From Acidobacteriaceae bacterium (lineage in GTDB: Bacteria; Acidobacteriota; Terriglobia; Terriglobales; Acidobacteriaceae): a stretch of DNA of 64,000 nucleotides. The position numbers were made by a program, and so were the translations under genes. Numbering within the stretch: position 1 is the stretch's first letter; each line of letters opens with the position of its first letter. A model generated the notes under the pieces. That model made no database searches, had not been told where the DNA came from, and saw nothing but the letters and a program-made list of their open reading frames with translations. Below, piece after piece: positions 38,036-62,561 of this stretch. The stretch is from the NCBI GenBank assembly GCA_003132405.1, contig PKXQ01000107.1:117602-181601 (forward strand), given 5' to 3'.

Positions 38036-38086
38036 TCAGACAAGTATATTTTCTGCTTGACAGTCTAGCAGCTCTGCACCTATTGT
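38036..38086 (+). promoter_or_regulatory. Promoter with shared operator repeat, site A
   Basis: Operator-like element CAGACAAGTAT-N6-TGCTTGACAG, a copy of the inverted repeat also found at 51381, 59291 and 62508. The -35 box TTGACA (38057-38062) is the right arm of the repeat; -10 TATTGT (38081-38086) follows after 18 bases. It would start transcription near 38093, ahead of the TonB receptor gene. A repressor bound here would cover the -35 box. It also lies 13 bases upstream of the divergent Rieske/PQQ operon start codon. Confidence 0.7.
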
Positions 38087-38143
38087 GTCTATCGCGTTTA
38101 TGAACCGCGAATACGCGAGTGCGGATTCTGGAGGTTGCTATCC

Positions 38144-41100
38144 ATGTTGACAGCAAACGCTTGGCAGAATTACCGAACGCGAAGACAAGGGATCGGCAGG
38201 GGTGTTGCGGGATTCTTAGGATTAATGCGATGTGCTGTTGTGCTGGCCTTCCTGGGTGCAGCCACCACGGTGCTATGCGCACAGGAACAAACAGCCATTG
38301 TAGGCACTGTGACGGACGCCACTGGCTCCGTCCTGCCGGGCGTGCACATTACGATTACTAACGAGGCCACTGGTCAAAGTCGAACCTTGGATAGCAACAA
38401 CAGCGGCGACTATGCGGCTCCCAGCCTCGCGATTGGAACCTACACCGTAAAAGCCACGTCGCCCAAATTCAAGGAATACGTCGAGACGGGAATTTCGCTC
38501 ACTGTAGGTGCTACGGTGCGTGCAGATATTCGCATGAATCTTGGCTCAACTACGGAAACAGTGTCCGTGAGCGCCGAGACGGAACAGGTGCAGTCAGATA
38601 CGAGTGAAGTAAGCAACCTCATTTCCAGTAAGGAAATATCGAACCTGGATATTAATGGGCGCGATATTCTTTCTTTGTTAACGCTGGGTGCCGGCGTTAC
38701 TACCACTGCGCCCGATTTTCAGGTACCTACGGCTGTCACGGCCAGTTTTGTCTATGCCTTCAATGGGATGAGCGCATCCGACAACGTATGGCTGATCGAC
38801 GGTGGCGAGGCTTATGATCGCGGTGCCGGCGGAACCATGAACGTGCTGCCTTCCCCAGATGCGATCTCCGAATTCAAAGTGCTTTCCAGTAATTACAGCC
38901 CAGACTATGGCTTCGGATCAGGGGGAATTATCACGATGGTGCTCAAGTCCGGGACGCAACATTTTCATGGCGCATTGTGGGAATATTTCCGCAATAACGA
39001 CCTCGATGCTAACAACTACTTCGCCAATCTGTACCAGACCCCAACGCCCGAATTGCGCTTTAATACCTTTGGCGGCAATCTAGGGGGGCCGATACCGTTT
39101 CCTGGTCGCACAGGCCGACCGAAGACGTTCTTCTTCGTCAACGAGGAGGAGCGCCGCATAGTGTTGGGCGCGCAATTCAACGGTATTGTTCCCACGATTC
39201 CGGAACGAAGTGGAGATTTCAGCGCGGCGGCGCCGATTTACGTCCCCTCCAACATCGGCGACCCGGCAAAACTGGCGCAGTACGCCAGCCTTGGGCTTGT
39301 TCCGGGCCAGCAATTTCCGGGAAATCAGATACCTGCGTCGCTCCTCGATCCAAATTTCCAGCTATTGTTGGGAACGGGCGCAATCCCTCTGCCAACCAGT
39401 GGAGATGAATACAGCGCCCCGGCCAATACGACGGTAAATCTCCGTGAAGACGTGGTCCGCATTGACCACACGGTAAACGACAAGATTCAACTTATGGGGC
39501 ACTATCTCCATGATGGTTTTCAAGAGCTTGTTCCGGGAGAATTCGGCGGCTATCCCACGGTGTCCTTCCCCGTGGCCGACCCCAGCTACAACGCAGTCAT
39601 TAAAATGACGTATATCTTCCGTCCGAACCTGCTGAACGAAGCTTCATTCAATTACAATGGCAACAAGATTATCGGTGGCATTTCGGGCATTTACCATGAA
39701 CCTGCTGGCTGGGATGTCAATAAGCTTTTTCCAGGCAACGATCCAAATGAGCGCATGCCGGTAACGATCATCGGCGCACCATTCGGCGCGTCCTACATTC
39801 CGGGCCCCCTTCCTTACACTAACGGTGCAACTGATTTCCAGGAACGAGATGACGTCTCGTGGGCCAAAGGGCCGCACAATTTTAAATTTGGTGGCTCCTT
39901 TATGCGCTACGCGAAGAGTCAGGACTTCATCGCATTTACCAACGGCGAGGATATCGCCTTAGGTATTTACACCGCTCAGTATAGCTCGACCGGCCAATTG
40001 CTTGCCCCTGGTAACTCGTTTGCCGATATGCTCATGGGGCTAGAGACTGCCTATACCGAAGCGGAGTCGAAGCCGAGGCTCCACGCCCGCGCGAACTTCG
40101 GAGACGTGTATTTTATGGACAACTGGCGCGTAGACCGAAGGCTGACGTTGAATTTGGGTGTACGCTATGAACTGTTGCCCCATTCGTACGAAGCATTTAA
40201 TCGCGTATCCAATTTTGTCGCCTCCGATTATATTAACGCAAACGCGGCGGTCTTCAACAGCGACGGCAGTATCAGCTCCAGCAGCCCCGGTGTGGGCACT
40301 GTGTCTGGCGTTCCTTTATCGAATGTTCCGTTTTATCTGAACGGAATTGTACTGGCGGGTCGCAACGGAGTTCCTAGGGGATTAGTCAATAATCATTGGG
40401 ATACAGTCGAGCCCCGAGTTGGCTTTGCGTACGACCTTCTCGGCACCGGCAAGACAATCCTTCGCGCGGGCGTGGGGATTTTCTTCAATCAAATCCAGGG
40501 CGGAGATCTGTACAATGCCACGCCAAATCCGCCGTTTACCAATACCCCTAGCTTGACCAGTGTTTATTTCTCGAATCCCGGTCTAAGTACTATCAACGGC
40601 CAGAGTATCCCCGCATTTCCGATACTACCCCAAAGTCTCACCAATCTTGCGCCGAATTATGACATTCCAGAGACCGCACAATGGAACTTTGGCATTCAGC
40701 AACAATTGAATGGTAAGTCGATATTCTCGCTAGCATATGTGGGGAATGCCGGCTGGCACGAGTGGCTTCAGCGTGCCATCGATACGGTACCACTGAGCGA
40801 CTCCAATCGAGCAGCTATTGTAGCCGGGGCTTATAACCCAAACCTGGACCGCATTTATCGCGGGTACTCTGGCATTACCCAACAGGAAACGACCGGCATT
40901 AGTAGGTATGCGTCATTACAGGCCAACCTTCGGGTGGAGAGCGCCCACGGGACCGCGCAATTGGCCTATACCTGGGCGCATGCACTGGACATTAATTCGC
41001 TGGAGACACAGATAGGTGCCGCCGTAACCAATCCGTTCAACCTCAGAGCGGACTATGGATCGAGCGATTTGGATATCCGGAATACGTTTGTTGCAAGCTA

Positions 41101-41593
41101 CATTTATCCAATTCCCACTCCCCACGCATGGTCCAACGCGTTCGCGCGCCAACTTCTCGGTGGATGGCAAATTTCCGGCATTACATCGATACAAAGCGGC
41201 TTGCCATTCTCGGTGCCTCTAGGCTATGACAATATTGGAGTGGGAGGCGGTACAACATCCCGAGCGGATATCGTCGCCCCCGTGTCGTATCCACAGACAC
41301 GATTGCAATGGTTCTCTACCAGTTCGTTTGCAGCGCCCCCCCTTCTCACTTTTGGAGATTCAGGACGCAATATTCTCAGGCTTCCAGGTCGCGACGTATG
41401 GAATATCGCCCTCTTTAAGACCTTCCCGCTCCACGAAAGTATGAAGCTGCAGTTTCGCGCGGATTCTTACAATACCTTCAATCACACTCAATTCAACCAG
41501 GTAGATGGTGGATTCAGCGACGCTTTGTTCGGCCAGGTAACTTCAACTTATGATCCTCGCGTGCTTCAGTTGAGTCTGCGGTTCGGGTTTTGA
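38144..41593 (+). CDS. TonB-dependent receptor, Oar/SusC-like
   Basis: This is a ~1149-residue outer-membrane receptor. The ATG at 38144 is behind GGAGG; a TTG three codons earlier is also open. A signal sequence ends near LCAQEQ, followed by a carboxypeptidase-regulatory-like domain (AIVGTVTDATGSVLPG, about 48-130), a plug with NLDINGRDILSL, the YSPDYGFGSGG and KSGTQHFHG segments, then a large beta-barrel ending in the aromatic LSLRFGF. Acidobacteria have many such receptors for oligosaccharides. The operator-bearing promoter at 38036 drives it. A CehA-like gene overlaps its stop codon (TGATG), so the two are translated together. RhaT follows, so the ligand may contain rhamnose. Confidence 0.92.
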   Translation: MLTANAWQNYRTRRQGIGRGVAGFLGLMRCAVVLAFLGAATTVLCAQEQTAIVGTVTDATGSVLPGVHITITNEATGQSRTLDSNNSGDYAAPSLAIGTYTVKATSPKFKEYVETGISLTVGATVRADIRMNLGSTTETVSVSAETEQVQSDTSEVSNLISSKEISNLDINGRDILSLLTLGAGVTTTAPDFQVPTAVTASFVYAFNGMSASDNVWLIDGGEAYDRGAGGTMNVLPSPDAISEFKVLSSNYSPDYGFGSGGIITMVLKSGTQHFHGALWEYFRNNDLDANNYFANLYQTPTPELRFNTFGGNLGGPIPFPGRTGRPKTFFFVNEEERRIVLGAQFNGIVPTIPERSGDFSAAAPIYVPSNIGDPAKLAQYASLGLVPGQQFPGNQIPASLLDPNFQLLLGTGAIPLPTSGDEYSAPANTTVNLREDVVRIDHTVNDKIQLMGHYLHDGFQELVPGEFGGYPTVSFPVADPSYNAVIKMTYIFRPNLLNEASFNYNGNKIIGGISGIYHEPAGWDVNKLFPGNDPNERMPVTIIGAPFGASYIPGPLPYTNGATDFQERDDVSWAKGPHNFKFGGSFMRYAKSQDFIAFTNGEDIALGIYTAQYSSTGQLLAPGNSFADMLMGLETAYTEAESKPRLHARANFGDVYFMDNWRVDRRLTLNLGVRYELLPHSYEAFNRVSNFVASDYINANAAVFNSDGSISSSSPGVGTVSGVPLSNVPFYLNGIVLAGRNGVPRGLVNNHWDTVEPRVGFAYDLLGTGKTILRAGVGIFFNQIQGGDLYNATPNPPFTNTPSLTSVYFSNPGLSTINGQSIPAFPILPQSLTNLAPNYDIPETAQWNFGIQQQLNGKSIFSLAYVGNAGWHEWLQRAIDTVPLSDSNRAAIVAGAYNPNLDRIYRGYSGITQQETTGISRYASLQANLRVESAHGTAQLAYTWAHALDINSLETQIGAAVTNPFNLRADYGSSDLDIRNTFVASYIYPIPTPHAWSNAFARQLLGGWQISGITSIQSGLPFSVPLGYDNIGVGGGTTSRADIVAPVSYPQTRLQWFSTSSFAAPPLLTFGDSGRNILRLPGRDVWNIALFKTFPLHESMKLQFRADSYNTFNHTQFNQVDGGFSDALFGQVTSTYDPRVLQLSLRFGF

Positions 41594-43350
41594 TGGCAAA
41601 CAGAAAATTGGCGGCCGGGGCCAGGACAGAATCGCAAATCACGCGGACAGACGGAAGCTCGATGAGGTACCGGGTTCTCGTAGTCCTCTTTCTTACCAGC
41701 CTGGCGTCGGTCTTGTCTCGGACGCAGCAACCGGAGTCGGCTCCCCCCACACACTGAGGGCCGGCTTCGAATCACCATCAATGACCTTAGCACCAACCGC
41801 CAGGTCCCGGTGCGTTGCTATCTGACGGATGCAGCCGGCCGGGCATGGTTTCCCGAGCACAGCATCAAATATGACAAACAATTCCTCGGTTTTAGCGAGC
41901 AAGATTTCATTACTGATGGCCAATTCGAAATTGCTTTGCCTGAATCCCAATACGTTCTCACGGTTGAGCACGGGCCGGAGTATTTGCCCGCCAGCCAGAA
42001 GATTGAAGTCCATTCGGGAATGACGCAGGAAGTGAAAATCGAATTAAAACGTTGGATCAACATGAATGACCGCGGGTGGTATTCGGGGGACCTACATACT
42101 CACCGAGATTGGCACGAGATGTCGGAGATACTTTTGGCGGAGGATCTGAACATCGGCCCGACGATCACACAATGGGCCGCCGCTTGGGCGCCGGACGACC
42201 CAATGGGCATTATGGCTTCGAGCCCTGGCCGCATGACTCTGCTGACTCGTTCCCCCGAGGTAGCGACCGCTGGCGCGGCCATACGGAACGTTGATTCTGC
42301 TCACGCGTATTCAATCTACGACACAGAGATTGAACGCCCCGGTGGAGCGGGGACAGTCGTGTTTGTCGGGCTGACCGCTCCCTTCGTTGCTCAAGGGACG
42401 TTGTTAAGCCCGCTGGACTCGGACTTTGCGGCACGGGTTCACAACTTAAGTGGGTACGTGGATGCCGAGAAACTCATTTACCGTGAAGTGCCGGTGCTAG
42501 TAGCAGACGGCCTGATCGATTTCGCTGGTGTCGTCAATAACGCTTTCAACCGCCACGGCGCCATAACAGGACGAATCAAAGACTCGAAGGTTGTTGCGGA
42601 CAAATCTTCTCCCGAAACACCGGAGGAAGCGGCTCTGGTCAGCATGGATATCTACTACAAATACCTCAATTGCGGTTCCGGCTTCCAATTTCAGCCGGCA
42701 CTGCCTCTGGTGTGATGCCAAGTCCAGTCGGTTACAACCGGGTATATGTGCACTTGGAGAAGGGATTTGGCTTTCGCCAATGGTTCCAAGCTCTCAAGGA
42801 GGGGCGTAGTTTTGCTACGAACGGCCCCGTTCTGTTTTTTACTGTGAACAACCACGAACCTGGAGATACGATTTCAATCGGGCCGGGCACCACAGGAAGC
42901 ACTAAGCATTTGACCATTCACGCCGAGGCACGCTCTGCCGGGCAACTGGACAGGTTGGAAGTGGTGTGGAAGGGCCACGTTGTCAAACGAATTCAGGCAG
43001 CGAACAATTCCTCGACTATAGATGCGGTGTTTGAATTTGATGCTAAGGAAAGCGGTTGGCTTATCGCCCGTACTTTTGAAAAGCCGGCGCCGACATTTCA
43101 CTTTGCACAGACCAATCCAGTTTTTGTTCGAGTCGACGATGATCCGGGCGTGGTTTCGGAGGATGCACGGTTCTTCATCGACTGGATCGACCGGGAGACG
43201 AACTTCTTCGAAAACTCAACCGGCTTCCAAGACGAGGCTGACCGGAAGGCAATGCTCGCACTGGTTCGACAGGCGCGCTCACTGTATGAACGGCTGGCGA
43301 CCAAAGCGCTCCCGAAGGGCCGGGGAAGTCGTGCCGATTCCTCTCAATAA
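41593..43350 (+). pseudogene. CehA/McbA-like metallohydrolase, two frameshifts
   Basis: This is a homologue of the intact protein encoded at 53571. It starts at ATG 41593 (overlapping the TonB stop) or 41662, with a signal peptide MRYRVLVVLFLTSL. Frame 1 stops after 41750. Removing one C from the C6 run at 41743-41748 restores the frame into HTEGRLRITIND and the rest. The PHP-type metal motif is GWYSGDLHTH. A second frameshift near 42675 interrupts CGFRLPISAGT, after which the C-terminal half runs to 43350. The domain order matches CehA/McbA-family hydrolases. It may be functional if the homopolymer shifts are sequence errors. Confidence 0.75.
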
Positions 43351-43406: not shown

Positions 43407-44426
43407 GTGATCACAATGAAGGGTTGGGGCGTTGCCTGTGTATTGCTGGCCGGCGTCTTGAATGCCAGCTTCATGCTTCCGATGAAACGCATAAAAGCGT
43501 GGCCCTGGGAAAACGTCTGGTTGATCTATTCGATGGTAGGTATGGTGATCCTGCCGTGGACACTCGCGCTCTCAACCGTCCCTCGTTTGGGCGACGTGTA
43601 TCGGAATACGGCGTGGTCAGTCTTGGTGAAAGTGGTCCTGTTTGGAATGGCCTGGGGAGGTGGTTCCACGCTCTTTGGAATTGGCGTAAGGCGGGTGGGG
43701 ATGGCACTAGGCTACTCCCTCATCTTTGGCATTACGGCTTCATTCGGCTCCCTGTTTCCCCTCCTCTTCTTGCACCCTGAAAGCTTAATGTCCGGCCAAG
43801 GTTGGACATTGATGGGCGGTACGGCCCTGGTGATGGTAGGCCTAATTTTCTTGTGCATTGCCGGAAGGATGCGGGAGAGAGAGATGCGAGTTACCACTTC
43901 GGCGGTGGCGTTTTCGGGCTTCGCTATGGGATTGGTAATCTGCATTTTTTCCGGCCTCTTCTCATCCATGCTCAACTTCAGCTTCATCTTTGGCATAGAC
44001 TTACAACATCTTGCGTCATCGTTTGGGTCAAGCCCCACCATGTCAGCTAATTCTATTTGGTGCCTCACGCTCAGTGCGGGCTTCATCGTAAACGCAATTT
44101 GCTGCGGACGCCTTTTAAGCAAGAACCATACCTGGCATCTGTTGTGGGAACCTGGCTTCGCCAGTTGTTGGATGAGCGCCCTTTTAATGGCATTTATCTG
44201 GTTTGGATGCATAGTCGCCTACGGAATCGGAGCCGCTTCCCTTGGAGTTCTTGGCGGAATTGTTGGCTGGCCGTTGCTAATGTCGATGACAGTTGTAGGG
44301 GCGAATGCTTGGGGGGTACTAACGGGCGAGTGGAAGGGTGCCAGACGTAGCTCACTCTCGTACTGGTGTGTGGGTCTTGCCAGTTTGCTGCTTGCGATCT
44401 ACTTGATCTCACGCGGCGCGACGTAG
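43407..44426 (+). CDS. rhaT: L-rhamnose/proton symporter RhaT
   Basis: This 339-residue membrane protein has ten hydrophobic segments. The start (GVLNASFMLPMKRIKAWPWENVWLIYS), WGGGSTLFGIGVRRVGMALGYS, the loop with MRERE, and GVLGGIVGWPLLMSM are the characteristic RhaT features. It imports L-rhamnose with a proton. GTG at 43407 has GGAG at good spacing; ATG at 43416 is the alternative. It lies downstream of the TonB and CehA-like genes and is probably in the same transcript, driven from the operator promoter at 38036. Downstream the chromosome turns into decayed phage-like DNA. Confidence 0.92.
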   Translation: MITMKGWGVACVLLAGVLNASFMLPMKRIKAWPWENVWLIYSMVGMVILPWTLALSTVPRLGDVYRNTAWSVLVKVVLFGMAWGGGSTLFGIGVRRVGMALGYSLIFGITASFGSLFPLLFLHPESLMSGQGWTLMGGTALVMVGLIFLCIAGRMREREMRVTTSAVAFSGFAMGLVICIFSGLFSSMLNFSFIFGIDLQHLASSFGSSPTMSANSIWCLTLSAGFIVNAICCGRLLSKNHTWHLLWEPGFASCWMSALLMAFIWFGCIVAYGIGAASLGVLGGIVGWPLLMSMTVVGANAWGVLTGEWKGARRSSLSYWCVGLASLLLAIYLISRGAT

Positions 44427-44639
44427 TTCTCTAGTAAATCGATATCCTGACGATACTGACAGGTTCCTGAGTAGAAATTGACTCGCGCTTACGAACAGGC
44501 TTGGCCCCGCGATCTGGACACACAATCTGGGCCGACAAACGAGGGTTGCCGATTGCTGCGGTTCGCCGGCTTTGAGCATTCGCTAAGCGAAAACGATCCG
44601 TCCTCACGATGGGTTTCGTAGACCTTTGGGTGAGCGAAT

Positions 44640-44852
44640 GTGTCAATACTAGAACAAGCAAGAACAGCCGAAGAGAAAATGCACAAGGCACAACGGGCTC
44701 TACTGGCCTTTGTTGCGCTTTCGCCAGTTGAGCCAGAGAATGTGGAGAACTATCGCGGGCTCGCGGAGGCACTGATAGAAGCTGCGCACGAGTACGTGCG
44801 CCTCGTTCTCGAACTAGATTCAGAAATGACCTACCCATCAACGGACAGCTAG
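44640..44852 (+). CDS. Small helical protein of unknown function
   Basis: A 70-residue, acidic, strongly helical frame starting with GTG (SILEQARTAEEKMHKAQRAL, then ENYRGLAEALIEAAHEYVRL). The helical periodicity and lack of cysteine look protein-like, but the ribosome-binding site is weak and no family is recognised. It sits just after RhaT at the edge of the phage-like region. Confidence 0.4.
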   Translation: MSILEQARTAEEKMHKAQRALLAFVALSPVEPENVENYRGLAEALIEAAHEYVRLVLELDSEMTYPSTDS

Positions 44853-45479
44853 GCCGTAATTCGCCAGAGCCTCACGTGCTTCCCTTCCAAATTCACTTTG
44901 CCGAGGCCTTTGGCATCAATGTGTGGGGCCGAAACGCGGGATTCTACGGGCTCGAACAACGTGTATCACGGCCTCCTGCGGAACCCGTACTAGGCATATC
45001 AGCTTTCATGGTTTTTCCAAAGTAGCCCCTCCCAAGGCGTGACTGTCAATTGACGTAATGTCTCTCAATAGCACTCATTATCAAGATGCGTTGAAAAGAC
45101 CTCTTCAAGAATCATCTGTTTCCCGAAGCCTTCGAGGCCTGATTCGGAGCGACAGAATCAACAACTTACGGGCGGCTCTGCGGAGCGGTTATTGAACGCC
45201 AGTTGGCACCTCCGCGAGTCGCTGATCGGTCAAGCGATCTTAAACTGTCAAGCGATCTTAAACCAAGGTCTCCGCCGGATTTCCTGCTCGGTTTGGATGT
45301 CCCCTCCCATTCCACTTAGTGGAATCCTGGAACCTTATAAACACTGGAAAAAACGGGGATACGGCCTGCAATTCATTCATTAAAATGGAGTTAACTTATT
45401 AATGGATGACGTCTACATAACTCGTCCAGTTTGTGTAGCTTGGCACGGTTGCAGTATTTTGACTGCCATTGGAGGCGCC
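44853..45479. other. Non-coding stretch with 16-base tandem repeat
   Basis: No gene is supported. TCAAGCGATCTTAAAC occurs at 45230-45245 and again at 45248-45263. This may be an iteron pair or a duplication at an insertion edge; two copies are too few to decide. Confidence 0.4.
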
Positions 45480-45722
45480 TTAGGCATCGGGCGGAGGTTC
45501 CTCTTCCGGCGGCACGGCGCCGAAGATGACTTCGATCTTCGCCACCTGGTCCTTGTCAGCCTTGCCCAGCAGGTCCTTCGACAGTCTGTGAACCGCCTCG
45601 AGGATGTGCAGCAGCTCGCCCGGCTTGATCGCGAGCTCCTCCTTCTCCTCGCCGGTGACCGGGTCCTTCAGCATGCGCACGGTTTCCAGCGTCTGGAAGC
45701 CGCGCAGCGCCTTCGTTTGCAT
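45480..45722 (-). CDS. Phage-like small protein, possibly truncated
   Basis: An 80-residue acidic, helical protein (LKDPVTGEEKEELAIKPGELLHILEAVHRLSKDLLGK). The same frame has a few plausible residues (AREIAQT) before the first ATG, then a stop, so the 5' end may be lost. Proteins of this kind occur next to phage packaging genes, and a small-terminase relation is possible but not demonstrated. Its phage-like - strand neighbours to the right support an origin in a mobile element. From 45723 to 46184 no gene is seen. Confidence 0.4.
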   Translation of the reverse strand: MQTKALRGFQTLETVRMLKDPVTGEEKEELAIKPGELLHILEAVHRLSKDLLGKADKDQVAKIEVIFGAVPPEEEPPPDA

Positions 45723-46184
45723 AGTCTGCGCGATCTCTCTAGCGTGGTTTTATTCATTGCCAGGCGCGTCCGTATCGCCTGCTGCTGCCCGACGCGGCAG
45801 GAGTCGAGTTCCTCCTCCTGCACCTTCCCCTAGTGACGAGTGCTAGTGTTCCCATTAAAATTGACCCGTTTGATCTACCCCTCGCCAACAACCGGATCGT
45901 ATAACTGCCAAAATCTGTCGGTGGCTTGACCGTCATTGTTGTTCCGCGAGAGCCACTGCGTCCACGGCGTCGGCGAGGGACAACCCTTGGTGCAGCGCCA
46001 CGCTAGTCACCTCGCCAAAGTGGGCATCGCAAAAACTAAACTATCCTTCGTCGTCTTCAATTGACCCAGTGGCTGCGTTCCCACAGCGGTTCAGATCACA
46101 TTTTTTCATCATTGCTCTTTTCTGAGTTCCTGCATTTGGCATGGAAGCCCTCCCGCGAGGAAGCGAGTACGGTCGTCATTTCAT

Positions 46185-46295: not shown

Positions 46296-46306
46296 TCTTA
46301 GTGTCC

Positions 46307-49333: not shown

Positions 49334-49337
49334 TTCG

Positions 49338-53570: not shown

Positions 53571-55226
53571 TCAGTGTGCCGGTTGAGCTTCCAGGCGAAA
53601 ATAGTCCAGCGATTGATTCAAACGTCGGAGCGTCTCTTCTTTCAGAGCGGGGCTGTCAACGATCATGGTCGTGGGGCCGGCGCCGACCTCAGACTTGCCA
53701 CTCTTGACCTCCTCGATCAAGCTTTGAATGCGGCGAGCAAGATAGTCGGCGTCAGGGCGAGAAACCGGTATTGGAGACTCACCCTTCCAGAAATAGATCG
53801 GCGAAGTATGGGCAAGGCCGGTGCTCTCTCCTTGCTTCCCAACCCAGCGCGCTACGACCCATGAACTGTCTTTAAGCACGAGACGCGCGCTGCCACGATA
53901 AGTAAAGCCCTTCCTGTCCGGCCTCATCCTGATTGACTGAACAGTACCATTCACCACAATCTCGGCGTGGTCAATAGGAATTGCCGACAACATCGTCAAA
54001 TCGATCTTGACAGTGAGAGGAAAATGCTCCGATTTATAATCCTGGCCGGGCTCAAGACCATTGGCTTTGAGAAGGACCATCGGCCCTGTGGTAACGAAAG
54101 ACCGACCCTTTTTAAGCGCTGCGAACCAGCTGTCGACGTCGAACTTCCCCTCGACGTGTGCGTAGATTCTGGCCCATCCCATGGGAACCGGGTGCACTCC
54201 GTATGCGCTGCCCGCTGAGAGTTTGAGAGGGAAACCGGTATTGAGTAAGGCGTAATAGAGATCAAAACCAGCATTCGCGAATCCCGCGCAAGTTTCAGGA
54301 TAGTGATGAGCCAAGAGGCCCGGCCAACTACCCCACGGGCCGAGATAGCAACCGGATCGCCAGAAGTGATTATTAGCTACGCCCACGAAGTCGCCGGCTG
54401 ATGCCGCTACAATCGCAGGCAACTCAAGAGACGTGGCTTTTTCAGAATTAACAATCGCTCCACGCTGACGCGCCTTCTCGGCTGTCGCGGCCATCGGATA
54501 ATCCAAAGCTAGGGGAGCGCGGCCTAACCGTGAGATAAGCAACGCCGAGGAGTAGGTTTCGAGTTCCTCATTGATCACCGTGAAGAAGGAATCCGGACCG
54601 ACTTGAATGACTCCGTTCTGGTCCGCCTTTTCAAGAAAACTTGACAGATTTGTATCTCGTTTTTCAGCGGTATCGATGTGCCAGACTGTTATGGGGAGCG
54701 CAATATTCAGGTCCTCAGCCTGCATGAGAGTGGCCACATCCGGCAGGAGAGCATGAACGTGCATATCTCCTGAAAACCAACCCAGGCGGGCCATTTGGAT
54801 CCATCTCTTTAAGTGAAAGGTCCTCTCAACTCTTCCAGAAGCCGGTATGTCGAGACTCTCGATGATGGGGAGATACTCTTTTCCTTTTTCGATTGTCAGG
54901 GAATAAATTCCACCAGGTATTTCGTAGTTGAGAACTCCATGAACGGGAACGCTGTGATGCTCCCGCGCTCCACTGTGGCTTTCGAGCTTTTTGTACTGGA
55001 TGGATTGTGGATCAAAAAATGTATTGTCTTTTGAGTCCGTCAGATAGGCGCGCGCCGGACATGGGGCGCCTGTCTCGTCCAGGATGGTGATGGAAAGAGT
55101 TGTCGCCCACGCTGCCGACGCTGCCAGGACGCTCACCATGGCAGCCAATCGGATAATGTACGTTGAGCAACTGGCTCCAGCTCTAGTGTGTGTACGGCTG
55201 ACGCCCGCCCCGGCAGTTTTAGTCAT
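53571..55226 (-). CDS. CehA/McbA-like metallohydrolase (PHP superfamily), exported
   Basis: This 551-residue protein has a signal peptide (core IIRLAAMVSVLAASAAWA). A beta-sandwich domain (about 45-140; ITILDETGAPCPARAYLTD) is followed by the PHP-type metal site starting GWFSGDMHVH. Further conserved parts are VGVANNHFWR, SAGSAYGVHPVPMGWAR and WFAALKKGRSFVTTGP. CehA/McbA members hydrolyse aryl esters or carbamates, but most are uncharacterised. It is the last gene of the leftward operon after the MBL-like gene, which it overlaps by 8 bases. A frameshifted homologue is at 41593 and a 3' remnant at 13209. All three lie near rhamnose or TonB genes. Confidence 0.8.
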   Translation of the reverse strand: MTKTAGAGVSRTHTRAGASCSTYIIRLAAMVSVLAASAAWATTLSITILDETGAPCPARAYLTDSKDNTFFDPQSIQYKKLESHSGAREHHSVPVHGVLNYEIPGGIYSLTIEKGKEYLPIIESLDIPASGRVERTFHLKRWIQMARLGWFSGDMHVHALLPDVATLMQAEDLNIALPITVWHIDTAEKRDTNLSSFLEKADQNGVIQVGPDSFFTVINEELETYSSALLISRLGRAPLALDYPMAATAEKARQRGAIVNSEKATSLELPAIVAASAGDFVGVANNHFWRSGCYLGPWGSWPGLLAHHYPETCAGFANAGFDLYYALLNTGFPLKLSAGSAYGVHPVPMGWARIYAHVEGKFDVDSWFAALKKGRSFVTTGPMVLLKANGLEPGQDYKSEHFPLTVKIDLTMLSAIPIDHAEIVVNGTVQSIRMRPDRKGFTYRGSARLVLKDSSWVVARWVGKQGESTGLAHTSPIYFWKGESPIPVSRPDADYLARRIQSLIEEVKSGKSEVGAGPTTMIVDSPALKEETLRRLNQSLDYFRLEAQPAH

Positions 55227-56028
55227 GAAGTTCTTCCTTCCCTAAAGAACGCAACTTACCCTTCAGTTCAGCTTTTAACCTGTCCGCAGCAAGCGGGTCA
55301 TAGAGCGGGAGTAAGATGTCAGCCTCTGCCTTGATGCGCTTGTAGGCCTGCATACACTCTTCCAAACTTTCCATGATGCCGAGGGGTTGCATTTCCTCAA
55401 CATTGCGGTATTTGAAGAAGCAATCGGAAGCGACCAATTGCCCCGCTGATGTCCCGACGGTATACGCCATCGAAGAACGATGATGGGCTCCTGTCCAAAG
55501 AGCCTTGAGACCCGGCAGGATTTCATCCTCATCCTCAAGCAAACGCAATTTGTCCGGAGCTCGGATCTCCAGGTAGTGGAGGGAATCATCAGGGATACAC
55601 AGCCTTCTGGGGATGTGCATCTCGTACTTGGGGGCATGGAAGTCCTCGATCCATCCTCGCTTGGAAATGCAAATCCGGGCGTTCGAAAAAAGCTGTATAT
55701 TTCCCGTGGCGTAGGCCTGCAGCGGCGTGATTAGTACATAGTCTACGTCCTGTGGACGAATGCCAATTTCAGCCAATGCTTGCTGGGGCCGCTCCTTTTC
55801 CTGCCTGACCATCTGGGCCCGTGGATCGATTGTCTTTTTCCAGACTTCATTCATGTCCGTCAAATCCTGGGGAGGGCCAGTGTTGATGATTGCGGTTTTC
55901 CCGCCGCCGCGGATGACCACCATCCAGAAGTACAAAGTCTCCCAGGTGTTCCAACCGCTCATCCAGTACACCTCGGGACCTGGCACTTCGCATTGCCCCA
56001 TCTTCAGGATTTGAACTTCGTATTTCAC
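55219..56028 (-). CDS. MBL-fold protein lacking the metal-binding motif
   Basis: This 269-residue protein has the length and strand order of N-acyl-homoserine-lactonase-like MBL proteins: GGGKTAIINTGPP, then DVDYVLIT, FSNARICISKRGW, LWTGAHHRSSMAY and LVASDC. The canonical THxHxDHxGN appears as TPLQAYATGN (residues 101-110), so His, His, Asp and His are replaced by Pro, Gln, Tyr and Ala while the frame of the motif is kept. It should not bind zinc in the usual way. It may have a new activity or a binding role. It lies in the operon between the aldolase and CehA-like genes. Confidence 0.7.
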   Translation of the reverse strand: MKYEVQILKMGQCEVPGPEVYWMSGWNTWETLYFWMVVIRGGGKTAIINTGPPQDLTDMNEVWKKTIDPRAQMVRQEKERPQQALAEIGIRPQDVDYVLITPLQAYATGNIQLFSNARICISKRGWIEDFHAPKYEMHIPRRLCIPDDSLHYLEIRAPDKLRLLEDEDEILPGLKALWTGAHHRSSMAYTVGTSAGQLVASDCFFKYRNVEEMQPLGIMESLEECMQAYKRIKAEADILLPLYDPLAADRLKAELKGKLRSLGKEELHD

Positions 56029-56091: not shown

Positions 56092-57006
56092 TTAACTATT
56101 AGTGACGTGCAGGTCATCGGCTAGGGTGACCACCAGGTTCACCAGTTCCTCGATTAGTTGCGTGTACAGTTCACCCAGGTGCAATGTGGGCTCTCGCATT
56201 CGAGCCTGCGGAATTACTCCGCGCCTCATGAGTACGCGCTTTTCCATCTGGACGAATAACTCAATGTGATCGAGGGCAAAAACTAAAAAGGGCACAATCC
56301 GGTAGAACAATGTCTTGGCCTCATCCACGCTGCCCTGGTTGTACAACCTCAACACTTGCGTATAAACGTCAACCAGGGCGAGCCCCGGCATGATTCCCGA
56401 TGCGCCATGGGCCAAACCGTCAAAAAGGCGGAGACCTCCCCAGCCGTACAGAACCTTTACCTTCCCATTCGACTGCCTGACAATTTCCTGACACCGCTCG
56501 CCGGGCAAAACGTTTTCCAGTTTGGCGAACTGAAGGTTTGGACAGCGTTCCGCCAACTCCACAAAAAAACGCACCGGTAGACCGCCGCCTTGAAAATCTG
56601 CGTCCTGAAGCATCACCGGAATTTGCACACTACGACAGACGGCTTCAAAGAAGACCATTAATTCTGATGCGCCCAAAGCAACTGCGCGGGGAGCAACGAT
56701 CATGACTCCATCTGCTCCAAGAGACTGTGCATTCACGGAAAATTCCACGGATGAGCGAGTTGACGGAAATCCTGTGTTCGCCCACACTGGAACACGGTGC
56801 CGGCAGTGCCCAATAACAAGCTCAGTAACATGGAGCCGTTCCTGCTCAGAGAGTTTGTAGTATTCGCTGCCGAAGGCGGGGATGCAGAGGGCGGTTGCTC
56901 CCTTCTCGATACCGAAATCCACCTCATTTCGGAGCGACTCTTCATCGATGCTCTCGTCCTCGCGGAAAGGTGTCACCAAAACCGGAATAACTAGCCGTGC
57001 GCTCAA
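56092..57006 (-). CDS. DapA-family (dihydrodipicolinate synthase-like) aldolase
   Basis: This 304-residue class I aldolase/lyase is of the DHDPS/NAL superfamily. The Schiff-base lysine is Lys162 in FAKLENV. The usual tyrosine of the second active-site motif (YNxP) is replaced: the segment reads VMLQDADFQ, with Gln at that place. Early TPFREDESID and GSEYYKLSEQER fit the family. Members in sugar-acid clusters cleave 2-keto-3-deoxy acids to pyruvate and an aldehyde, or dehydrate them. It sits between the rhamnonate dehydratase and the MBL-like gene, so 2-keto-3-deoxy-L-rhamnonate is a likely substrate. Confidence 0.8.
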   Translation of the reverse strand: MSARLVIPVLVTPFREDESIDEESLRNEVDFGIEKGATALCIPAFGSEYYKLSEQERLHVTELVIGHCRHRVPVWANTGFPSTRSSVEFSVNAQSLGADGVMIVAPRAVALGASELMVFFEAVCRSVQIPVMLQDADFQGGGLPVRFFVELAERCPNLQFAKLENVLPGERCQEIVRQSNGKVKVLYGWGGLRLFDGLAHGASGIMPGLALVDVYTQVLRLYNQGSVDEAKTLFYRIVPFLVFALDHIELFVQMEKRVLMRRGVIPQARMREPTLHLGELYTQLIEELVNLVVTLADDLHVTNS

Positions 57007-57186: not shown

Positions 57187-58374
57187 TCACTCTATAATCT
57201 CGAACTGCTTCAACGATTCCTCGTCCATGTCAATTCCTAAGCCGGGGCGATTTTCGTCTAACTCAATATAACCTTCATGAGGAGTGGGCTCTCCTTTGAA
57301 GATGTACCAAAACAGCTCGTTCCCCAACTCAACATCAACGGGAGGAAAATACTCCGCCATCGGGGAGTTGTAGCTTGCCATCACTAGATGGTAATTGTGC
57401 AATTGACCGGCATGGGGAATCACGGGTACGGAGTATGCTTCCGCCAAAGCCGCAATCTTCCGAGCCGCCGTGATTCCACCGACCCGGCTAGTGTCAAACT
57501 GGATATAGTCGACTGCCTGTGAGTCGAGCAACTGGCGAAATCCGTGGAGGGTAAACTCGTGCTCACCGCCCGCAATCGGGATGCGACGCATCGCTCTCAG
57601 GGCGGCATAACCTGCAATGTCATCCGGGATGACAGGCTCTTCGAGCCAGCGCAGGTTGTAACGTTCGAGCAGTGGGATCATCCGTAATGCGTAATCCAGG
57701 GTCCAACCCATGTAGGCATCCGCCATCAGGTCTATGTCCCACCCTATGATCTCCCGGACAGTGCGGACCAGTTCCACATTGCGCTGCATTCCAGCAGCGC
57801 CATCCACTGGCCCCCAACCAAATCGAAGCTTCATGGCGCGGAACCCTTGGTCCTTATATGCTTGTGCCTCCTCGGCCAGTTGCTCCAGGGGTTGGCTATA
57901 AAGCCTGCTGGCATAGACAGGAATTTTGGATTTGGTCTTGCCGCCCAGTAGCCGGAAAAGAGGCTGCCCCAATGCCTTTCCAATCAGATCCCAGATGGCA
58001 ACATCCACCGCGCTGATCGCTACCATCACAATTCCCTTACGCCCGAACGCGATTGTCTTGCGGTACATGGATTGCCACAAATATTCCGTATCGAAGGGAT
58101 TGGCCCCGATTAGAAGTGGCGTCAGATACAAATCGATCACCTGCTTACTGATGCGCGGTGCTAATGCCGCCTCCCCTACTCCAACGAGACCAGTGTCAGT
58201 GCGAACTTCAACGATCAGCCAGCTATGGAATAAGAAAGAGCTCATGCCATCGATCGGAAGATCCAATAAATCCATGGGATTTGTACACTGATGTGGCTGC
58301 AGGGGTCGTGTCGGTCCTCGCCACTCGACCACACGAGTGCGGACTTCGGTGATCTTCATTCCGTCCTTCCCCAA
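57187..58374 (-). CDS. Enolase-superfamily sugar-acid dehydratase, L-rhamnonate type
   Basis: This 395-residue protein has an N-terminal capping domain (about 1-130) and a barrel with KLRFG (Lys182, Arg184), Asp219 in LMADAYM, Glu245 in RWLEEP and Glu271 in GGEHEF as metal ligands, and His321 in IPHAGQLHNYH. GPVDGAAGM, VIPDDIAGY and ELGNELFWYIF resemble L-rhamnonate dehydratase (E. coli RhmD/YfaW) among mandelate-racemase-group enzymes. It would convert L-rhamnonate to 2-keto-3-deoxy-L-rhamnonate. It follows the GntR regulator by about 100 bases and heads the aldolase/MBL/CehA operon. The exact aldonate is inferred. Confidence 0.82.
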   Translation of the reverse strand: MGKDGMKITEVRTRVVEWRGPTRPLQPHQCTNPMDLLDLPIDGMSSFLFHSWLIVEVRTDTGLVGVGEAALAPRISKQVIDLYLTPLLIGANPFDTEYLWQSMYRKTIAFGRKGIVMVAISAVDVAIWDLIGKALGQPLFRLLGGKTKSKIPVYASRLYSQPLEQLAEEAQAYKDQGFRAMKLRFGWGPVDGAAGMQRNVELVRTVREIIGWDIDLMADAYMGWTLDYALRMIPLLERYNLRWLEEPVIPDDIAGYAALRAMRRIPIAGGEHEFTLHGFRQLLDSQAVDYIQFDTSRVGGITAARKIAALAEAYSVPVIPHAGQLHNYHLVMASYNSPMAEYFPPVDVELGNELFWYIFKGEPTPHEGYIELDENRPGLGIDMDEESLKQFEIIE

Positions 58375-58476: not shown

Positions 58477-59214
58477 CTACACTTCGACGACCGCGGCCCT
58501 GGAAGCCTTGACCAGAAGCGCGTACCCTCGCGAGAAGGTCAGAAGATGACTGCGCATCGCGGTGCGCGCCTGCTGTGCATTGCGGTGTCGGATAGCCTCA
58601 AAAATCTTTCGGTGCCCCTTGAGCCCGGTGGCAGCCGAGTCAGGAAGTTGCAGACTCCGGGAAATGTAATCGGACAGAAGAGTACGAATCGTACGCAAAA
58701 GTTGAGACAGGACATTGTTCTGTGAGGCGCGCGCGATGGTGAAATGAAACTCCATGTCCAACTGCAGAAAATCTCCCTCAGCACTTTTTACGTAGCGCTC
58801 CATTGCACTGAGCAGGTCGGCAAGGCGGTTCAAGTCGTCCTCGGTTGCCAGTTGCGAACTCAGCGCCGCCAACTCCGATTCAATCAAAGTTCGGGCCTCG
58901 GCGAGTTCGCTCACTTCACGCTCAGTATTCAACAGGCCGCGGTGGAGCACTCTGTCGAGAAACGCGGACGGTCCTTCGGTCACAAAAGAGCCATCTCCCG
59001 CTCGCATCTTCACTAAACCGATAAACGAAAGCGACCGTAGGGCCTCCCGTACCGTCGATCGGCCCACCTGGTACGACTGGCAGAGTTCGGCCTCGGAAGG
59101 AAGTTTTTCACCTGACACCAGTTGCCCTGATGTGATCATTTCAACAATCCGAAACGCCACCTGTTCGCTCAGCGGAACGCGGGACACGGGTTGAACAAGA
59201 TTCCTCATAAACAT
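58477..59214 (-). CDS. GntR-family regulator with FCD domain (FadR subfamily)
   Basis: This 245-residue regulator has a winged helix-turn-helix at about 14-80 (LSEQVAFRIVEMI, GEKLPSEAELCQSYQVGRSTVREALRSL) and an all-helical FCD ligand domain (about 95-235) with metal-binding positions in LDMEFHFTIA and MRSHL. Such proteins repress sugar-acid operons and release DNA on binding a pathway acid. The repeat at 59291 overlaps the -35 box of its own promoter. The same repeat stands before three other transcription units in this window, making this protein the best candidate for their regulator. Confidence 0.9.
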   Translation of the reverse strand: MFMRNLVQPVSRVPLSEQVAFRIVEMITSGQLVSGEKLPSEAELCQSYQVGRSTVREALRSLSFIGLVKMRAGDGSFVTEGPSAFLDRVLHRGLLNTEREVSELAEARTLIESELAALSSQLATEDDLNRLADLLSAMERYVKSAEGDFLQLDMEFHFTIARASQNNVLSQLLRTIRTLLSDYISRSLQLPDSAATGLKGHRKIFEAIRHRNAQQARTAMRSHLLTFSRGYALLVKASRAAVVEV

Positions 59215-59269
59215 TAGCTCCCTCTTCGTGCATGCTAAGGCTACCCCAAAACGAAGAGAGTTGGTTTTC

Positions 59270-59322
59270 CTTATACATACTCACTACTCGGCAGTCAAGC
59301 ATTTATAATGCTTGTCAGACAT
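59270..59322 (-). promoter_or_regulatory. Promoter with shared operator repeat, site C
   Basis: On - the element reads GACAAGCAT-N6-TGCTTGACTG. -35 TTGACT (59298-59293) lies in the repeat arm; -10 TATAAG (59275-59270) follows after 17 bases. It faces the GntR regulator gene, 55 bases ahead of its start codon, so autoregulation is likely. Confidence 0.7.
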
Positions 59323-59442
59323 GTAAAAAGTAAGCCGCGTTCCGGCAGCATTAGTTGATCGATCTTACTTCTGCATGTAACTTGCCCCTGATAGACTGGC
59401 TCAAACATAGAAAAATAAAGGCAAGCCAGTCTTTACCAAACG

Positions 59443-62400
59443 CTATGAAATCCGGTGTTCGTAATACGGCGTGATACGAACGGTTCCCAGCTGTGAGGTG
59501 AATTTGTAACGTTCAATGTGCCGTAACTCTAGTTCGTTCACGCCCGAGCGTAACGCCGGCTGCATATCAAACTTGAACGGATTGACGAAGCACGAGCCTA
59601 AACTCGTTCCGTTTAGCTTGACCTCGATGACTTGAGTCATATCTTCGATTGCTAAGTCGGCAAACAGCGCCTCGGAGGCAGTCCATTCAAAATTTCGCTT
59701 GTAAATCGCTCCGTTCGGTTCGCTGGGAGTTCTCGTCCAGCCCTCCGTAAGGGCGAGCGGCGAAAGCTTGCCAGACGGCGTTGACCACTGCTTCTCTTCT
59801 TTGCTGCCCTTACCGCGCACGACAGCGTAATGAACAAGTCCCGGAGTGTAGGTTCGAAGTTTGATGGTGCCGTCTTCCGTCCGTTCCAGTCCATCCGCAT
59901 CTGTCTCAGTTATGTAAGTTTCAGGCTGAGCCGACGGGTTAACGACAATGAACAAAGACTCGTAGCGATTAAGACTGATTTCGACCGAGACTCCGTCATC
60001 GGTTGGAACATAATAAGGTGATTGACGAATCGATCCATCGACGGGATTCCAGAGTTCGGGTATCCCGCGTGCCCCACGCAGTCTCACGCGTGTGCGTACT
60101 GTTTCTCCCTCATTGTTGAAAAAGTACAGATCTCTTCCCGAAAGACGACGGTGATAAAACTGCAGCATCGTCAGATTGGGATCGATCCAGACATCATGAA
60201 CATTTAACGAATAGATGTGGTGCGCAAGATCTTTGTATCCCATCAAGTGGGCATGACCGGGCCCGCTCGCGTCGGTTCCCCATAGCCTCTGCGCCAGACT
60301 CTTGACTTCGGCGTCGCCGCGATTATCCGTAGAGCGAGTAGGCGTCGAAGGAACGAGCTTCACCACCGCGAACTGCGGATCGTCCGAGGCTATCCGTAAG
60401 CTGGGCCCGAGGAGAAACACACTTCCCCCAGCTTCATAGAACTGGACAATACGGCGCAGGACCTTCACCGGAATGGCATCCACGCCGGGCAGAACCAGAA
60501 ACTCGTACTTCTCTCGCCCTAAGTGAATGTGACCATCGCTAGGCCGGCAGCGCGCCGGATCGGAGAATACATCATAAGAGACCAGATCATAATCAAGGTG
60601 CGCCTGGCTCAACGCTTGACACGACTTCCACACCTCCTCAACCGCTCCTACCCAAGCGGATTCGGCAGTATCCAAGACCAAAGCCTGCGCGACGTGTTGG
60701 CCACCGCGAATCATCATGGTTTCGCGATTTACGATGGTCTGATATGCGGGGAAGTAGCTCGTAAACGGGTTATCCTTGTGCAGCCAGAACTCGGGCTGCA
60801 CTTCCCAATCGGGAGGATTCTTCGTATCGAAACCACACGGCACGATATGGTTCAATCCGCGGCAAGTGGTCCAATCGATCATTGCCTTCATCTCGGTCAG
60901 GCCGGTGCGCCACCCGGTCGCGGCAAAATGCTCGACCATCGCTTGATCGAGGGGCACTTCCTTATAATGACTGATTGAGCTGGCCATTTTGGATTGGCGC
61001 CAGTAGACATCCATGTCGGGCGTGAACCACTGATCAAAGATGTGATCGAAGCCTCCCATGCTGAGAGCTTCCAGGGTACGGAAATTGCTTCCGGTACCTG
61101 GGCCAAGTTGATAGGGGAAGTCCTCGCGAACGTGTCCATTGGTCTGAATGCCATGCGCCTCCGCGAATTGAGTTTGCTTGCCGATGAACAAGCGCGCGTA
61201 CTCGGAACTCACAAAATCCATGTAATCGCGTCGCACTCGATTGGTGGTCGCGCCGTGCTCTATCCAGAGGAGCGGTAGCACCGGTTTTAACGAGTAGCCA
61301 AAACGCTTTTCAAAGCGGGAGAGCAAGTCTGGCGTCCAGGGAAAGCCTGCGCCTGCCTGACCCGGCATCAATCCGCTGGAATAGAATCCCGGCTCGTCGA
61401 TGTAAAATCCCTTCCACGTGCGCCCGAGGTTTTCGTAGCCGATTGCGCGGCACGTGCCTTCAAGCACCAGACTGACATACAGATCCATGGCCTCTTCACT
61501 AAGCGGGTCTACATATCCCCGAACCTCGCCATGAAGCAGGTCAGGGTATCCTTTTGGATCGTCGATGCCGGGCTGCCAGGCCCCGTGAACGAAAATTTCC
61601 CAATCCCCTCCCGGCATCTGCCATGTCAAATGGTTGTCTGAGACAAGGTCAGACAGATCTTTGAAGGAATCGTGCGGCCCGATTGCGGACACGGTCGCCA
61701 GTTGCTGCGACGGAAGCACTTCGTGGATATCGATTGATACCGTGCCGGGCCCGTGACAAACGCGCCGGTAGGGCATCGTGACTTCCCATTTTCCAAATCT
61801 GCGGTTCTTCGCGACCACGGCTCCGCCGGCATATCCACAGGGATAGTTCTTATCGTCTTGTTCCCAGACCGTCAGCCCGAACTTACGCGCTTCATCTACG
61901 ATCACTCGCCAGCAGCGCCAGTTGTCCTCTTGAAGAAATCCACGAAAGTCGTATGGGTGCAAGGTGACTCCTTGAAAACCAAAACGGTGGATCACCTGCA
62001 TGAATTCCCGAAGTTCGGCAGCCGACTCGGTTCCGTGGACAATCAAGAAAGGACAGGAACTGCGCGTCGGATTCGTTCCTCTGAAAGCAGCGGCGAGTGA
62101 GTCCCAATCCATCTCGGTTGTCGGAGTTGCACTGAGTGCATTCGAAGGCTCAGTCTCGCCTCCGGACCCGACGGCCGCCACGCTGAACGTGTAACCGGTT
62201 CCATTCTCCAGCCCTTGAAGGGAATATTCAGTCACTTGAACATCATCGATCGTGCTGAGAGTCCCGTGAAGAAGACCGTAACGAACCTTGTAGGAAAGCG
62301 CGCCCTTTACTGGCGTAAATGACAGCACTACTCCCGTATGTTCAGCCCGAACCGAATTTAGAACAGGCGGTCCCCACTCCCGCGGCGGCAACGGAACAGG

Positions 62401-62478
62401 AGACGAAATCGCTTGCCACAGTGGCAGTCGAAGCAGCGGAGCGATTCCAGCTATGGATAAGAATGACCGGCGATTCAC
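59443..62478 (-). CDS. Large exported glycoside hydrolase, GH106-like (alpha-L-rhamnosidase)
   Basis: This is a 1011-residue enzyme. RRSFLSIAGIAPLLRLP is a Tat-type export signal. A fibronectin-III-like domain (about 40-120, LNSVRAEHTGVVLSFTP ... SNALSATPTT) is followed by a barrel. It carries GFQGVTLHPYDFRG, WKGFYIDEPGFYS, THGHVRED-like TNGHVREDFPYQLG and HYKEVPLDQAMVEHF. Beta-domains end it, the last being a sugar-binding sandwich (EVKLNGTSLGSCFVNPF). This order resembles GH106 rhamnosidases and related large hydrolases; the Glu of YIDEPG is a catalytic candidate. It diverges from the TonB receptor gene at 62596 and shares the operator region with it. Confidence 0.6.
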   Translation of the reverse strand: MNRRSFLSIAGIAPLLRLPLWQAISSPVPLPPREWGPPVLNSVRAEHTGVVLSFTPVKGALSYKVRYGLLHGTLSTIDDVQVTEYSLQGLENGTGYTFSVAAVGSGGETEPSNALSATPTTEMDWDSLAAAFRGTNPTRSSCPFLIVHGTESAAELREFMQVIHRFGFQGVTLHPYDFRGFLQEDNWRCWRVIVDEARKFGLTVWEQDDKNYPCGYAGGAVVAKNRRFGKWEVTMPYRRVCHGPGTVSIDIHEVLPSQQLATVSAIGPHDSFKDLSDLVSDNHLTWQMPGGDWEIFVHGAWQPGIDDPKGYPDLLHGEVRGYVDPLSEEAMDLYVSLVLEGTCRAIGYENLGRTWKGFYIDEPGFYSSGLMPGQAGAGFPWTPDLLSRFEKRFGYSLKPVLPLLWIEHGATTNRVRRDYMDFVSSEYARLFIGKQTQFAEAHGIQTNGHVREDFPYQLGPGTGSNFRTLEALSMGGFDHIFDQWFTPDMDVYWRQSKMASSISHYKEVPLDQAMVEHFAATGWRTGLTEMKAMIDWTTCRGLNHIVPCGFDTKNPPDWEVQPEFWLHKDNPFTSYFPAYQTIVNRETMMIRGGQHVAQALVLDTAESAWVGAVEEVWKSCQALSQAHLDYDLVSYDVFSDPARCRPSDGHIHLGREKYEFLVLPGVDAIPVKVLRRIVQFYEAGGSVFLLGPSLRIASDDPQFAVVKLVPSTPTRSTDNRGDAEVKSLAQRLWGTDASGPGHAHLMGYKDLAHHIYSLNVHDVWIDPNLTMLQFYHRRLSGRDLYFFNNEGETVRTRVRLRGARGIPELWNPVDGSIRQSPYYVPTDDGVSVEISLNRYESLFIVVNPSAQPETYITETDADGLERTEDGTIKLRTYTPGLVHYAVVRGKGSKEEKQWSTPSGKLSPLALTEGWTRTPSEPNGAIYKRNFEWTASEALFADLAIEDMTQVIEVKLNGTSLGSCFVNPFKFDMQPALRSGVNELELRHIERYKFTSQLGTVRITPYYEHRIS

Positions 62479-62507
62479 AGCCCTATTTTCCCAGTTCAGT
62501 TCGTATA

Positions 62508-62561
62508 CTTGTCAGACAAGCATCTTTTCTGCTTGACAGTTTAACAGCCGTAAATTATATT
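62508..62561 (+). promoter_or_regulatory. Promoter with shared operator repeat, site D
   Basis: CTTGTCAGACAAG (62508-62520) runs into GACAAGCAT-N6-TGCTTGACAG. -35 TTGACA (62533-62538) and -10 TATATT (62556-62561) are 17 bases apart, a near-consensus sigma-70 promoter. It would start the TonB receptor message near 62568. The left arm alone is a 13-base palindrome of the kind bound by GntR/FCD proteins. Confidence 0.75.

Follow-up and report, generated by a model that had tools for sequence, protein, structure and literature searches.

A GntR/FCD Regulator and Four Putative Operators Predict a Local Regulon in a Sugar Locus of an Acidobacteriaceae Bacterium

Why do four promoters within 24.5 kb of an acidobacterial genome carry what looks like one and the same regulatory site? 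The question is raised by a 64,000-nucleotide stretch (hereafter, the window) of contig PKXQ01000107.1 from an Acidobacteriaceae bacterium, in which the 25-base pattern GACAAGYAT-N6-TGCTTGACWG is present in exactly four copies, with no mismatches and with identical internal spacing. We propose that these sites are the operators of a GntR/FCD (FadR-subfamily) transcription factor encoded at 58477-59214 of the same window, and we assign this predicted explanation, taken as a whole, a probability of about 0.82.

The Predicted Operator and Its Promoters

The pattern copies (25 bp) lie at 38039-38063 (+), 51384-51408 (+), 59292-59316 (-) and 62515-62539 (+), the start positions in a first-pass annotation of this DNA having been off by 1-7 bases. 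At up to three mismatches the window holds seven matches, including reverse readings of the near-palindrome, compared to a mean of 0.04 in dinucleotide shuffles of the window. Each site is part of a sigma-70-like promoter: the right arm of the pattern supplies a -35 box, as the annotation had noted, and a -10 box lies 17-18 bp on at all four sites.

The same annotation had taken the AAGCA/TGCTT inverted repeat to be the operator. The repeat is operator-like and its pattern is perfect at all four sites, but the predicted symmetric core is a 13-bp palindrome, CTTGTCWGACAAG, located farther left, with its centre ~12 bp upstream of that of the repeat. The AAGCA/TGCTT repeat is composed of the inner half of CTTGTCWGACAAG and the -35 region. 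The annotation had overlooked the palindrome's left half (CATATC, GATATC, CATGTC and CTTGTC at sites 1-4, respectively), and the sites therefore exceed 25 bp. The distance from CTTGTCWGACAAG to the -35 box is exactly 12 bp at all four sites:

Operator 1, 38032-38044, plus strand: palindrome CATATCAGACAAG, two mismatches to CTTGTCWGACAAG; upstream of Oar1-CehA-RhaT
Promoter 1, 38057-38086, plus strand: -35 TTGACA at 38057-38062, 18 bp, -10 TATTGT at 38081-38086
Operator 2, 51377-51389, plus strand: GATATCAGACAAG, three mismatches to CTTGTCWGACAAG; upstream of the SDR/epimerase pair
Promoter 2, 51402-51431, plus strand: -35 TTGACA, 18 bp, -10 TAATAT
Operator 3, 59311-59323, minus strand: CATGTCTGACAAG, one mismatch to CTTGTCWGACAAG; upstream of the GntR gene
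Promoter 3, 59270-59298, minus strand: -35 TTGACT, 17 bp, -10 TATAAG
Operator 4, 62508-62520, plus strand: CTTGTCAGACAAG, a perfect palindrome; between the GH106-like gene and Oar2
Promoter 4, 62533-62561, plus strand: -35 TTGACA, 17 bp, -10 TATATT

According to the excerpted text of PMC4494728, operators of the FadR subfamily consist of TKGT and ACMA boxes with three bases between them (TKGT-N3-ACMA). The palindrome, which can be written TTGT-CWG-ACAA, has this form, and it also agrees with TNGTNNNACNA in the portion of PMC2230225 available. The right arm of the 25-base pattern is the -35 box and may in addition contain a weak half-site, TGCTTGAC. Weaker extra half-sites have been described near GntR operators, 7-12 nt from the centre (PMC4494728, in excerpt), although the TGCTTGAC arm sits farther from the operator centre than these.

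Recurrence of the Palindrome beside GntR Relatives

Relatives of the window GntR protein at E <= 1e-45 were identified in 13 of 398 family genomes, the host included, to which named genomes added four (L134, L135, L137 and L149; L numbers denote loci). The 400 bp upstream were compared for 18 relatives (window included), for 25 more distant GntR genes (L034-L058, mostly of the same genus or family, plus four belonging to other families within the class) and for 64 further GntR genes (L150-L213, of which one, L156, is titled Acidobacteriaceae). Excluded beforehand were partial matches (L059, L060) and named copies that duplicate counted loci (L136, L138-L148).

At no more than one mismatch, CTTGTCWGACAAG was found upstream of seven of the 18 relatives (three perfect; six of 17 without the window), compared to none of the 25 more distant genes, one of the 64 further genes and none of 360 shuffles. 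When the other 17 relatives were searched de novo for palindromes having 5-bp arms, blind to the window, TTGTC-N1-GACAA ranked first (4/17). Exact CTTRTCWGACAAG was present upstream of a GntR relative in five of six selected genomes (the three nearest relatives and three previously seen to carry the site) and was the sole exact match in the genome in four of these five; none was found in the sixth, that of L149. Across the 398 family genomes, TGTCWGACAAG-N11-13-TTGAC had six matches (reversed control, one): two in the window, two upstream of GntR relatives and two strays, both located in mechanically called open reading frames (ORFs). Upstream of the window GntR gene and of five relatives, 12 bp separate the operator from TTGAC; in one relative the distance is 11 bp.

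In the nearest relatives by tree path, L134 (61% identical) and L135 (50%), the palindrome (zero and one mismatch, respectively) separates the GntR gene from a divergent Oar gene. Operator placement at an Oar receptor therefore recurs in two other genomes. Downstream, each locus also carries an enolase-type gene, with 77% identity over 209 residues in L134 and 38% identity in L135.

In the upstream regions of the GntR genes of L032, L067 and L070, TGTCTGCTATYCTGA recurs close to the GntR start; it resembles half an operator joined to a -10 box.

The GntR/FCD Protein

GntR/FCD transcription factor, proposed regulator, 58477-59214, minus strand: GntR helix-turn-helix (HTH) and FCD domain

The proposed regulator has an N-terminal GntR winged HTH (PF00392, 68.2 bits, cut-off 27) and a C-terminal FCD domain (PF07729, 102.3 bits, cut-off 24.3). 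It did not reach the cut-off of any of the 25 NCBIfam families listed, including the NanR subfamily (148.6 of 260 bits). Identity as the lactate regulator LldR, an NCBIfam equivalog, is not supported, as the protein missed the curated cut-off (112.9 of 311 bits). Residues D153, H157, H201 and H223, which we take to resemble an FCD metal site, are invariant in 13 of 13 aligned relatives. Our matching of the HTH numbering to the published one relies on a FadR sequence. In that numbering, as excerpts of PMC4494728 have it, Arg at position 28 accompanies G or C at the second base of TKGT. The window protein has Ala42 at position 28 of its Pfam GntR match (residues 15-78); across 13 relatives this residue is conserved to at least 90%, and the corresponding base of the site is T (TTGT). 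Gly at position 59, also tied to G or C in the same excerpts, is present too (Gly73) and runs counter to a simple picture. Overall, we consider the residue pattern mildly supportive of TTGT recognition. The FadR-subfamily proteins covered in the excerpted PMC4494728 take small ligands, e.g., carboxylic acids.

Given the recurrence of the palindrome upstream of relatives, the GntR/FCD protein is very probably the regulator of the four sites, its own gene included, as the first-pass annotation had suggested.

Proposed Mechanism and Direction of Control

We propose that a dimer of the GntR/FCD protein would bind CTTGTCWGACAAG, ending exactly 12 bp before a near-consensus -35 box, and that a small hydroxy-acid of the pathway would release or switch this binding. 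Four transcription units would be controlled: Oar1-CehA-RhaT; SDR-epimerase; the regulator's own putative operon, GntR-dehydratase-DHDPS-MBL-CehA (MBL, metallo-beta-lactamase); and Oar2. The divergent GH106-like gene is perhaps controlled as well. If transcription is assumed to start 7 bp past the -10 box, the operator centre would lie near -54. We lean toward repression, because the promoters are near consensus and because the TGCTTGAC arm could be a second half-site over the -35 box. Activation is a somewhat less favored alternative, considered because the upstream position of the operator suits an activator.

A Strictly Local Set of Sites

The host genome is a draft of 5.72 Mb in 158 contigs, estimated to be 88.84% complete. 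The genome scan proposed in the first-pass annotation found exact matches in the window only: AAGYAT-N6-TGCTTGAC had four exact matches, all in the window, and at one mismatch added site 3 read in reverse plus two stray matches, one on contig C121 (inside a mechanical ORF) and one on C27 (between ORFs). None of the palindrome forms searched for was found at these two stray loci. A longer form, TRTCWGACAAG-N12-TTGACW, had four exact matches, none with one or two mismatches and 26 with three. This total of 30, compared to 28 for the reversed control, indicated that all but the four exact matches were background. Ten stray loci were inspected (L005, L006 and L109-L112 in the host; L215, L216, L224 and L225 in other genomes), nine of which were inside a mechanical ORF, with L005 between ORFs. 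A genome-wide regulon was rejected, as there were no matches at one or two mismatches and those at three were at the level of the reversed control. The sites precede several co-located units and occur nowhere else in the draft genome, and are thus predicted to mark a strictly local set of four promoters.

Points against the Proposed Regulon

Several observations weigh against the proposal that the GntR/FCD protein controls the four sites. Operator 2 departs from the consensus at three of 13 positions. In eight of the 18 relatives the 400-bp upstream region lacks a good palindrome (three mismatches in one, four to five in seven); one of the eight is L149 (51% identical), whose poor match is on the other strand with 19-bp spacing. 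The upstream count is partly circular, as the consensus was first read from window site 4 and the relatives. TTGTC-N1-GACAA, the top-ranked palindrome of the blind search, also occurs upstream of two of the 25 more distant GntR genes, and the half-site is therefore partly a family trait. The relatives with the site are mostly members of a lactate-linked clade (see below) and not strict orthologs. Distant targets could be absent from the incomplete draft genome. A plain repressor would not usually have its operator centred near -54. Finally, the explanation is predicted from sequence, and its binding, operon extents, ligand and direction of control are all part of that prediction.

Genes Predicted to Be Controlled

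The genes that the first-pass annotation had listed as targets (two TonB receptors, the first with CehA-like and RhaT genes, an SDR/epimerase pair and the GntR gene) are those found beside the four sites:

38135-41593, plus strand: Oar-type TonB-dependent outer membrane receptor 1 (CarboxypepD_reg + OMP_b-brl_4)
41810-43350, plus strand: CehA-like protein 1, with one frameshift near 42676 relative to the intact CehA-like protein 2
43407-44426, plus strand: RhaT-family sugar/proton symporter
51716-52477, plus strand: SDR-family dehydrogenase, likely start ATG 51716
52509-53519, plus strand: NAD-dependent epimerase/dehydratase-family protein
53571-55226, minus strand: CehA/McbA-family metallohydrolase (CehA-like protein 2)
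55219-56028, minus strand: metallo-beta-lactamase-fold hydrolase, possible lactonase (Pfam score slightly below the cut-off)
56092-57006, minus strand: DHDPS-family aldolase or dehydratase
57187-58374, minus strand: enolase-superfamily (MR/MLE) sugar-acid dehydratase
59443-62478, minus strand: GH106-like protein with fn3, divergent from Oar2; a possible extra target of operator 4
62596-64000, plus strand: Oar-type TonB-dependent receptor 2, extending past the window end

The genes of the site 3 unit (GntR, dehydratase, DHDPS, MBL and CehA/McbA) are all on the minus strand, with gaps of no more than ~180 bp. The target genes of site 2 are ~280 bp downstream of the predicted start. The frameshift that splits CehA-like protein 1 may reflect either a genuine mutation or an error of the draft assembly. 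At operator 4 the palindrome is perfect, as nowhere else in the window; this operator sits in the interval 62478-62596, flanked by the GH106-like gene and Oar2, which are divergent, and both of these genes may be under its control.

A Lactate-Linked Sister Clade

Seven other relatives (L032, L033, L067, L071, L072, L073 and L076) are beside or within ~4.2 kb of an L-lactate permease gene; five of these neighbours were identified by Pfam and all seven by tblastn. The 300 bp upstream of all seven permease genes contain the palindrome at zero to two mismatches, compared to none of 350 shuffles. As a comparison set at the same loci, 18 of 152 mechanical ORFs have the palindrome, permeases and GntR included. 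In a maximum-likelihood tree all seven permease-linked relatives fell into one clade of 11 (support 100/99); no L-lactate permease was found near the other four members in the stretches covered. The window protein groups with L134 (84/91), outside this clade, and L135 joins three relatives having an Oar gene within 4 kb (82/73), the deeper forks being weak. An initial reading of all 18 GntR relatives as orthologs was rejected after the neighbour check and the tree.

The seven sister-clade proteins are 41-47% identical to the window GntR, and four of their loci share its 12-bp distance to TTGAC. They differ from it in their permease neighbours and their separate clade. Since the palindrome occurs at the L-lactate permeases of the sister clade, the putative operator has been retained next to a different pathway. 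The lactate permease of the host (C23) was rejected as a fifth target because no palindrome with fewer than three mismatches was found within its 4.6-kb locus.

The Candidate Signal

The first-pass annotation had proposed a rhamnose-derived acid as the signal, which our analyses did not establish. GH106, RhaT and a GH78-like domain to the left fit a link to rhamnose. The dehydratase at 57187-58374, however, scored ~519 bits to 3stp/3sqs/3ssz ("putative galactonate dehydratase" and similar) versus 215 to L-rhamnonate dehydratases, and missed the cut-off of the NCBIfam L-rhamnonate dehydratase (239.8 of 393 bits), although this was its best NCBIfam match. On these scores a co-regulated L-rhamnonate dehydratase, the mark of an L-rhamnonate regulon, is not supported, and the enzyme belongs to an uncharacterised group. 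A search of the open-access literature found no paper naming two of 3STP, 3SQS and 3SSZ; in the part of PMC5507952 available, GntR and rhamnonate are mentioned in separate statements on other organisms. The ligand may be an aldonate or, by analogy with what is presumed for the sister clade, lactate.

It is possible, though in our view unlikely, that the GntR protein senses lactate, a possible deoxysugar product via lactaldehyde, and not a sugar acid, having retained both the ligand and the operator of the sister clade. Such sensing concerns the ligand alone and is compatible with control of the four sites by the GntR/FCD protein. It would fit the seven of 11 sister-clade members that lie within ~4.2 kb of a permease gene with the same operator, and the non-phosphorylated breakdown of L-rhamnose, which yields pyruvate and L-lactaldehyde (PMC3870299, in excerpt). 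However, an enolase-type dehydratase gene neighbours the GntR gene in the window, L134, L135 and L149, and the stretches covered there contain no lactate permease; the host permease locus is without the palindrome, as described above; and lactate sensing by the sister clade is itself deduced from gene neighbours.

More broadly, we speculate, with considerable doubt, that an Acidobacteriota FCD lineage has kept one operator code while its targets moved between L-lactate uptake and the scavenging of sugars or sugar acids by TonB receptors, possibly with the lactate response retained, so that deoxysugar-derived lactate would signal to outer-membrane receptors.

Another Factor or Duplicated Promoters?

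If another transcription factor bound CAAGYA-N7-TGCTTG, the GntR gene would be merely a bystander target. This motif is perfect by pattern at all four sites, and sigma-70 does not require the TGC before the -35 box. Nevertheless, we judge this quite improbable. At no more than one and no more than two mismatches, CAAGYA-N7-TGCTTG was found upstream of one and four of the 17 other relatives, compared to six and nine for the FadR-type palindrome, and upstream of none and one of the 25 more distant GntR genes (palindrome, none and three). The AAGCA/TGCTT inverted repeat was accordingly rejected as the core operator, being less conserved among relatives than the palindrome. Furthermore, L071, L072 and L073 retain TGTCWGACAA, with the right arm reduced to TTGAC, and it is the palindrome that agrees with the GntR family's own consensus (PMC4494728, as excerpted).

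The copying of one promoter by local duplication, without a shared regulator, would suit the closeness of the sites and the likeness of sites 1 and 4 (23 of 25 core bases), but was rejected as highly improbable, because the flanks (-70 to -13 and +26 to +100, counted from the first G of GACAAG) are only 17-35% identical between site pairs (11-19/58 upstream, 13-26/75 downstream), which is background, the first downstream genes are of three different families, and the palindrome recurs at GntR relatives of other genera. The sites are thus not simple duplicates, consistent with the earlier preference for protein binding.

Comparison with Known Systems

The regulon appears to be of an ordinary bacterial kind, with the twist that related regulators use the same site beside lactate transporters. 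Like the FadR-subfamily (FCD) regulators of hydroxy-acid and sugar-acid use, LldR, GlcC, DgoR and ExuR, the window GntR has an HTH and an FCD domain, a TKGT-N3-ACMA site and a gene adjoining its presumed targets; unlike them, it falls under the NCBIfam cut-offs and its predicted targets include Oar-type TonB receptors. In the available portion of PMC2230225, GntR1 and GntR2 of Corynebacterium glutamicum likewise have a FadR-subfamily operator, and their site centred at -60 at ptsG is tied to activation; they control gluconate and glucose uptake, however, and belong to another phylum. The L-rhamnose regulons in the excerpted part of PMC3870299 have rhamnosidase-like and RhaT-like genes nearby, as does the window, but use regulators of the AraC, DeoR and LacI families. 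Neither "GntR" nor "Acidobacteri" occurs in the available text of PMC3870299 (0 occurrences each), and no GntR regulon of Acidobacteriota was found in the open-access literature of one library.

These predictions provide a sugar locus of a poorly studied soil phylum with a regulator, its operator and a list of targets. They suggest that a regulator lineage retains its operator while the adjoining pathway changes, and that Oar-type outer-membrane receptors may be under a cytoplasmic sensor of the hydroxy-acid type. With four promoters and one type of site, the regulon would be small enough for complete testing.

The Surrounding Locus

To the left, at 24671-34316, the window has a sugar-breakdown set comprising SDR, a GH78-type rhamnosidase domain, SMP-30 lactonase, FAH-family hydrolase and IlvD-type dehydratase. 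A XylR-like AraC-family regulator belonging to this set lies at 26998-28173, and a GntR palindrome with fewer than three mismatches was not found in the interval. Between RhaT and operator 2, the interval 44500-51300 has few convincing genes, including a PAS + DUF5906 fusion (49589-50491) and a DUF4326 protein (46737-47237), and has the appearance of decayed mobile DNA. Immediately to the right of the window, L064 (G000:C142:181600-201000) has a second gene set (alpha-amylase-like, GH63/trehalase-like, GH31, FAD oxidase, SDR and an Oar fragment) that is 77-86% identical to genes of window 13392-24249. Farther right, L065 has an IlvD-like gene and a rhamnosidase-like gene that are 90% and 75% identical, respectively, to window genes.

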